Shown here piece after piece: positions 25,777 to 25,895 of a stretch of 38,900 bases of DNA. Below the pieces are notes generated by a model that worked only from the letters and a program-made list of their open reading frames with translations, was not told the DNA's origin and searched no databases. Location: assembly GCA_011522725.1 (NCBI GenBank), contig WTIL01000013.1, forward strand, positions 1 to 38,900, given 5' to 3'. Position 1 is the first letter of the stretch, and each line of letters opens with the position of its first letter. The translations under genes and the position numbers were made by a program. This DNA is from Rhodospirillaceae bacterium (GTDB lineage: Bacteria; Pseudomonadota; Alphaproteobacteria; Puniceispirillales; Puniceispirillaceae).

Positions 25777-25831
25777 AGCTGCTTGGCACAGCGACCACGG
25801 GGCCGGAACGGCCCATGCAAATCATTCCGAA

Positions 25832-25860
25832 ATGCTATGGTCGGCGGACCATCAGGTCAA
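25832..25860 (-). promoter_or_regulatory. Probable katG promoter with palindromic spacer
   Basis: On the minus strand TTGACC and TAGCAT are 17 bp apart. A perfect inverted repeat, ATGGTC-GGCG-GACCAT (25837-25852), fills the spacer. Two opposite copies of the 10-mer GGAATGATTT flank the promoter (25819-25828 and 25867-25876). The predicted leader is about 85 nt. Confidence 0.6.
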
Positions 25861-25863
25861 GCT

Positions 25864-25895
25864 GTTTGGAATGATTTTAAACTGACAAGATTGTC
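25864..25895. promoter_or_regulatory. Irr-box-like sequence and adjacent palindrome upstream of katG
   Basis: TTTGGAA-TGA-TTTTAAA (25864-25880) differs by one base per half-site from the TTTAGAA-N3-TTCTAAA form of Irr iron-control elements as I recall it. One base further is a perfect palindrome TGACAA-GA-TTGTCA (25882-25895). The pair sits just upstream of the katG -35 and 62 bp or more after the irr stop. Binding is inferred from motif and context only. Confidence 0.45.

Follow-up and report, generated by a model that had tools for sequence, protein, structure and literature searches.

What controls a catalase-peroxidase gene that follows directly on the gene of an iron response regulator is the question raised by the stretch of DNA analysed here (38,900 nucleotides, hereafter the window), which by its sequence belongs to a SAR116-clade alphaproteobacterial MAG. 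Its minus strand carries irr (26430–25957), a 216-bp intergenic region and katG (25740–23545), an order that bears out the sequence-only reading in placing irr directly upstream of katG. The former gene encodes a 157-aa Fur-family iron response regulator (IrrA; NCBIfam NF045678, 163.1 bits against a cut-off of 150) and the latter a 731-aa catalase-peroxidase (HPI; TIGR00198, 1164.8 bits; NF011635, 1302.7 bits). Divergent from irr on the plus strand lies fabA-fabB-fabI (26604–29150; Pfam FabA, ketoacyl-synt, adh_short_C2), present beside irr in identical order in L018, L020, L085 and others, and judged by this gene order it marks the standard alphaproteobacterial irr locus. Along the minus strand the intergenic region reads ...TGTGACAATCTTGTCAG-TTTAAAATCATTCCAAA-CAGC-TTGACC-N17-TAGCAT-TTCGGAATGATTTGCAT..., and the motifs named in the earlier reading were all recovered where it had placed them or at most one to two bases away.

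The Irr box, or ICE, has as its consensus a 7-3-7 dyad, TTTAGAA-N3-TTCTAAA. With this the primary box of the window, TTTAAAATCATTCCAAA (minus strand, 25865–25881; TTTGGAA-TGA-TTTTAAA when read on the plus strand), agrees at 12 of 14 positions, and it shows no mismatch to the clade pattern TTTARAATYATTCYAAA. It had been described as Irr-like and as containing the upstream copy of an inverted 10-mer, and the 10-mer does lie inside it, at 25868–25877. By chance the window would hold 0.01 matches to the Irr-box pattern TTTARAATNATTCTAAA at up to three mismatches, and the genome motif scan suggested by the sequence-only reading, a matter of pattern matching only like all genome-wide scans reported here, returned the katG box as the sole site with at most two mismatches in the 2.26-Mb assembly. 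A weight matrix trained on relatives, the window and its sister left out, gave this box 35.0 bits in a scan of the 38.9 kb, followed by 10.3 bits for a secondary box described below (the second-best distinct site) and 6.3 bits for the best match elsewhere. Each of the 12 genus genomes has the primary box ahead of katG.

Four base pairs from the box begins a predicted katG promoter of the form that had been claimed, TTGACC-N17-TAGCAT, present on the minus strand with its -35 hexamer at 25860–25855, its -10 hexamer at 25837–25832 and a spacer of 17, and thus showing the conserved hexamers, 16–18 nt apart, of the sigma-70 type. Conservation was assessed in 46 distinct intergenic regions from relatives having irr followed by katG. 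A TTGA -35 hexamer stands 2–5 bp behind the box in 45 of these (44 of them at 3–5 bp), a -10-like hexamer of the TA..T type follows at 16–19 nt spacing in most relatives, and the box is kept even where the flanking sequence has diverged past alignability. Because the box persists in this way with its -35 hexamer at near-constant distance, box and promoter can be regarded as functional DNA. Irr is probably the protein that binds the primary box, as suggested by synteny with irr and by the co-occurrence of the two across genomes. Of 44 regions upstream of katG sampled in other alphaproteobacteria, 12 contain an ICE with at most two mismatches, where 1.3 would be expected; these are 12 of the 33 regions in irr-carrying genomes as against none of the 11 in genomes without irr (P=0.017). 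Judged by shuffles of its own sequence, one of the twelve (G143) probably matches by chance. ICE-like boxes before katG were seen across many families (L109, L115, L118, L119, L122, L124, L129, L139, L147). An independent arrangement, [box]-TTGACG-katG-irr, is seen in G245 (L110), where 3 bp separate the box from the -35, and a box abutting a TTGAC -35 recurs in G245, G200, G139 and G204.

The regulator itself can be assigned to the IrrA subfamily, since it exceeds the cut-off of that model and stays below that of the sister model Irr (155.3 bits, cut-off 170). Its metal ligands H56, D104, H110, H112 and D123 (H, D, HxH, D, together with the HxH His-cluster) are kept in 55–56 of 56 Irr orthologues; their counterparts in B. 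japonicum Irr are H63, D111, H117, H119 and D130, and B. subtilis PerR has a matching set, at which bound iron activates peroxide (PMC4700492). The 157-aa sequence of the window Irr contains no cysteine, and therefore the haem regulatory motif (Cys-Pro), including the motif for haem-triggered degradation of the B. japonicum type, is absent, which sets the SAR116 Irr apart from B. japonicum Irr. This motif is found in the B. japonicum type only and does not define Irr proteins as a whole. In R. leguminosarum, haem bound at HxH causes Irr to lose DNA binding rather than to be degraded (PMC7762939), and from its residues the Rhizobium mode, haem at the His-cluster leading to DNA release, appears likelier than degradation for the window Irr.

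The promoter had also been described as enclosed by opposite copies of a 10-mer, and GGAATGATTT does occur at 25868–25877 on the plus strand and at 25828–25819 on the minus strand, the common centre of the copies (25848) lying 3.5 bp, close to the claimed 3 bp, from that of a palindrome in the promoter spacer (25844.5). Taken alone, such an exact inverted pair is only mildly unusual (P~0.03 by shuffles, 0.056 by random 216-bp pieces). The outer copy falls within a secondary, weaker Irr-like box, ATGCAAATCATTCCGAA (plus strand, 25815–25831), which lies over the predicted start, 50 bp centre to centre from the primary box. It recurs at the same +50 in the sisters L004 and L005 and is absent from most other species, while L040, of another genus, has a stronger secondary box (16.1 bits) at +52 and a degenerate main box; the secondary box of L040 thus occurs independently of the one in the window and its sisters. 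In L021, a SAR11 species, and in G139 a box covers the -10, instead of or besides the primary one. The likeliest reading of the opposite copy, on these comparisons, is that it is a further Irr site of lesser strength and does not belong to another regulator. The second ICE-like box of G139 (L124) overlaps the katG -10 some 43 bp from the first, so that the promoter there lies between two boxes.

Inverted repeats are abundant in the intergenic region: it contains five perfect palindromes whose arms are 6 or longer and whose loops are 4 or shorter, where 0.3 would be expected, and none of 1000 shuffles reached five. This significant excess speaks for an alternative in which Irr shares the promoter with independent dimeric factors, one at the spacer palindrome and one at TGACAA-GA-TTGTCA, as does the left part of the latter, TGTGRCA, which all 12 sequences of the genus keep at 10–11 bp upstream of the box. 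Conservation of the dyads as such argues the other way. The spacer palindrome ATGGTC-CGCC-GACCAT (25837–25852) is a perfect 6-4-6 repeat, as had been claimed, but it does not lie wholly inside the spacer, because its last base is also the first base of the -10; it is common only to the window and the 90% sister L004, is broken in L005 and beyond, is probably not a conserved site, and as an operator was ruled out by this loss past the 90% sister. TGACAA-GA-TTGTCA does follow the Irr box, at 25883–25896, one base further than had been thought, and forms a feature of 25883–25898 with the conserved half TGTGACA (minus strand, 25898–25892), yet its two arms are fully complementary in the window and the 90% sister only, the right arm varying elsewhere in the genus. 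With the outer copy itself Irr-like and the inner palindromes not conserved, the earlier view of the nested repeats as sites for more than one dimeric regulator is not upheld, and we consider independent factors at these two palindromes distinctly unlikely. TGTGRCA, which from its conservation is an asymmetric genus-level element, would leave room for one additional candidate factor. Three further perfect palindromes, GGGCCGTTCCGGCCC, TGTTGTCACAACA and CATCATATGATG, lie in the katG leader (25755–25814) and are shared by the 90% sister only. RNA structure in the leader was rejected as an explanation, hairpins being seen by eye in several species and the mean z-score over 41 leaders being -0.18; an Rfam search of the katG leaders gave no match.

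What is directly established is which sequence elements are present, that they are conserved in a fixed geometry, that irr and katG are paired and that Irr keeps its ligand residues; Irr binding, the sign of control and the signal we infer from this. There is good reason to think that the neighbouring Irr controls the katG promoter, repressing at low haem or iron and being released by haem or peroxide. One Irr dimer would sit on the ICE next to the -35 box, and another could occupy the weaker ICE that covers the start, some five helical turns further downstream; since dimers are proposed at both ICEs, the promoter would lie between two operators. When haem or iron is scarce, Irr would hold down katG, whose product is a haem enzyme, and when haem loads the His-cluster, or peroxide oxidises the PerR-type iron site, Irr would let go and katG would be made. 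Control of katG by haem or iron and probably by peroxide, as the sequence-only reading had suggested, draws support from conservation across the order, from the narrow range of box-to--35 distances and from the enrichment of ICEs before katG. The promoter is thus very probably an iron/haem-gated switch for peroxide defence, built of known parts.

As to the sign of this control, repression is the probable one, favoured because boxes cover the -10/+1 region in the window, L040, L021 and G139. A core promoter near consensus points in the same direction, and in low iron Irr represses iron and haem genes (PMC3413700, PMC7762939). Alternatively, Irr bound just upstream of the -35 might contact RNA polymerase and activate katG, which would then be made at low haem or iron or when Irr is abundant. 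Such activation would accord with the near-fixed distance from box to -35 (4–5 bp) over deep divergence and with the finding that Irr can act as an activator of certain genes according to where the ICE lies (PMC7762939), and in Pelagibacter the rubrerythrin gene rises 1.57-fold under iron limitation (PMC2864753), which, should the gene be under Irr in that organism, is the opposite of what simple repression predicts. Yet the core promoter is already near consensus, a box over -10/+1 in several species would be expected to block, and turning on a haem enzyme during haem shortage would be physiologically odd, so that we regard activation as rather unlikely; that Irr acts in both senses seems very unlikely. 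In R. sphaeroides, deletion of irr raises katE indirectly and Irr does not bind upstream of katE, the verified direct targets being mbfA and ccpA (PMC3413700). This case weighs against the proposal, though katE is another catalase gene and has no ICE.

The box might also serve a different protein of the family and not Irr, as the assembly holds three Fur-family genes, among them Fur on contig C9 and a third homologue on contig C103, and the boxes of this family overlap in sequence. But the katG box is syntenic with irr and, among the sampled other alphaproteobacteria, stands before katG only in irr-carrying genomes, and it does not look like the sites on contig C73, which resemble the classical Fur box; we judge this assignment most improbable. 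The C73 sites (G000; L058, L059; 8254, 8304) consist of a Fur-like box, TTGAGAATGATTATCAA, present in two identical copies at a distance of 50 bp, just upstream of a gene identified by eye as that of a putative ABC-transporter periplasmic iron-binding protein. Because these tandem boxes precede it, iron uptake is probably under Fur, and uptake run by Fur would fit an Irr that is local and perhaps has a single target. Stricter and looser patterns alike found few sites in the genus besides the katG box, near control counts, and a wider Irr regulon was rejected on this pattern scan, from which weak sites can escape. Autoregulation of irr was dismissed for the genus, where irr is preceded by no Irr box; some SAR11 genomes (as a second box) and other genomes do carry one where the gene starts. 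The best score with the OxyR equivalog model is 85.7 bits against a cut-off of 329, in an assembly that is 86% complete and with a cut-off that only one control reaches. The best LysR matches in the assembly do not look OxyR-like, no clear OxyR was seen there, and inspection of the intergenic region by eye noticed no ATAG-type OxyR site.

A wider comparison places the locus in a familiar setting. In other alphaproteobacteria and in SAR11 rubrerythrin comes next after the fabIBA<>irr locus, and an Irr-like box usually lies between (rubrerythrin-type loci L018, L020, L088–L091; coordinates for G136, G138, G139, G144, G146). Rubrerythrin was not found in the genomes of the SAR116 genus, which have katG at that spot. 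By gene order the SAR116 locus matches the usual fabIBA<>irr-[box]-rubrerythrin locus, the box in both standing between irr and a peroxide-scavenging iron enzyme, with katG replacing rubrerythrin. With the Irr/ICE promoters of Rhizobiales and Rhodobacter (bfr, mbfA, ccpA, rirA) it shares an IrrA-type regulator, the His-cluster and a 7-3-7 ICE near the promoter; unlike them, it has katG adjoining irr as its target and a box that abuts the -35, and whereas Irr is often a global regulator, the motif scan found no other strong site in the SAR116 genus.

Mycobacterial FurA belongs to a different subfamily and has its own binding site. In the furA-katG pair, too, the gene just ahead of katG encodes a Fur-family protein that regulates locally (PMC2358910), and SAR116 differs from it in having Irr, an ICE in the katG promoter and, across the genus, no box before irr. 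Bacillus PerR, a Fur-family protein with an H, D, HxH, D iron site, controls katA and so has a catalase target. It has these ligands in common with SAR116 Irr (PMC4700492), which differs in its box sequence and its family, lacks cysteines and is expected to respond to haem.

No report of Irr boxes before katG was found in the literature covered, a 2006 comparative study of alphaproteobacterial iron regulons lying outside the search; the parts and the logic are known, and it is the pairing of Irr with katG in SAR116 that seems new. One possible, still tentative view of its history is that the SAR116 Irr, once a global iron regulator, has been reduced to a local single-target switch for peroxide defence, with katG in place of rubrerythrin, the ICE fixed at the -35, two operators five helical turns apart in some species, and Irr doing the job of OxyR or PerR. 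What emerges is a concrete and conserved model, open to testing, in which marine alphaproteobacteria that are abundant and for the most part uncultured link their principal protection against peroxide to the availability of haem and iron. It suggests that control of katG by Irr is widespread in the class, and that Irr in these bacteria may act as a dedicated peroxide/haem switch instead of a global iron regulator.
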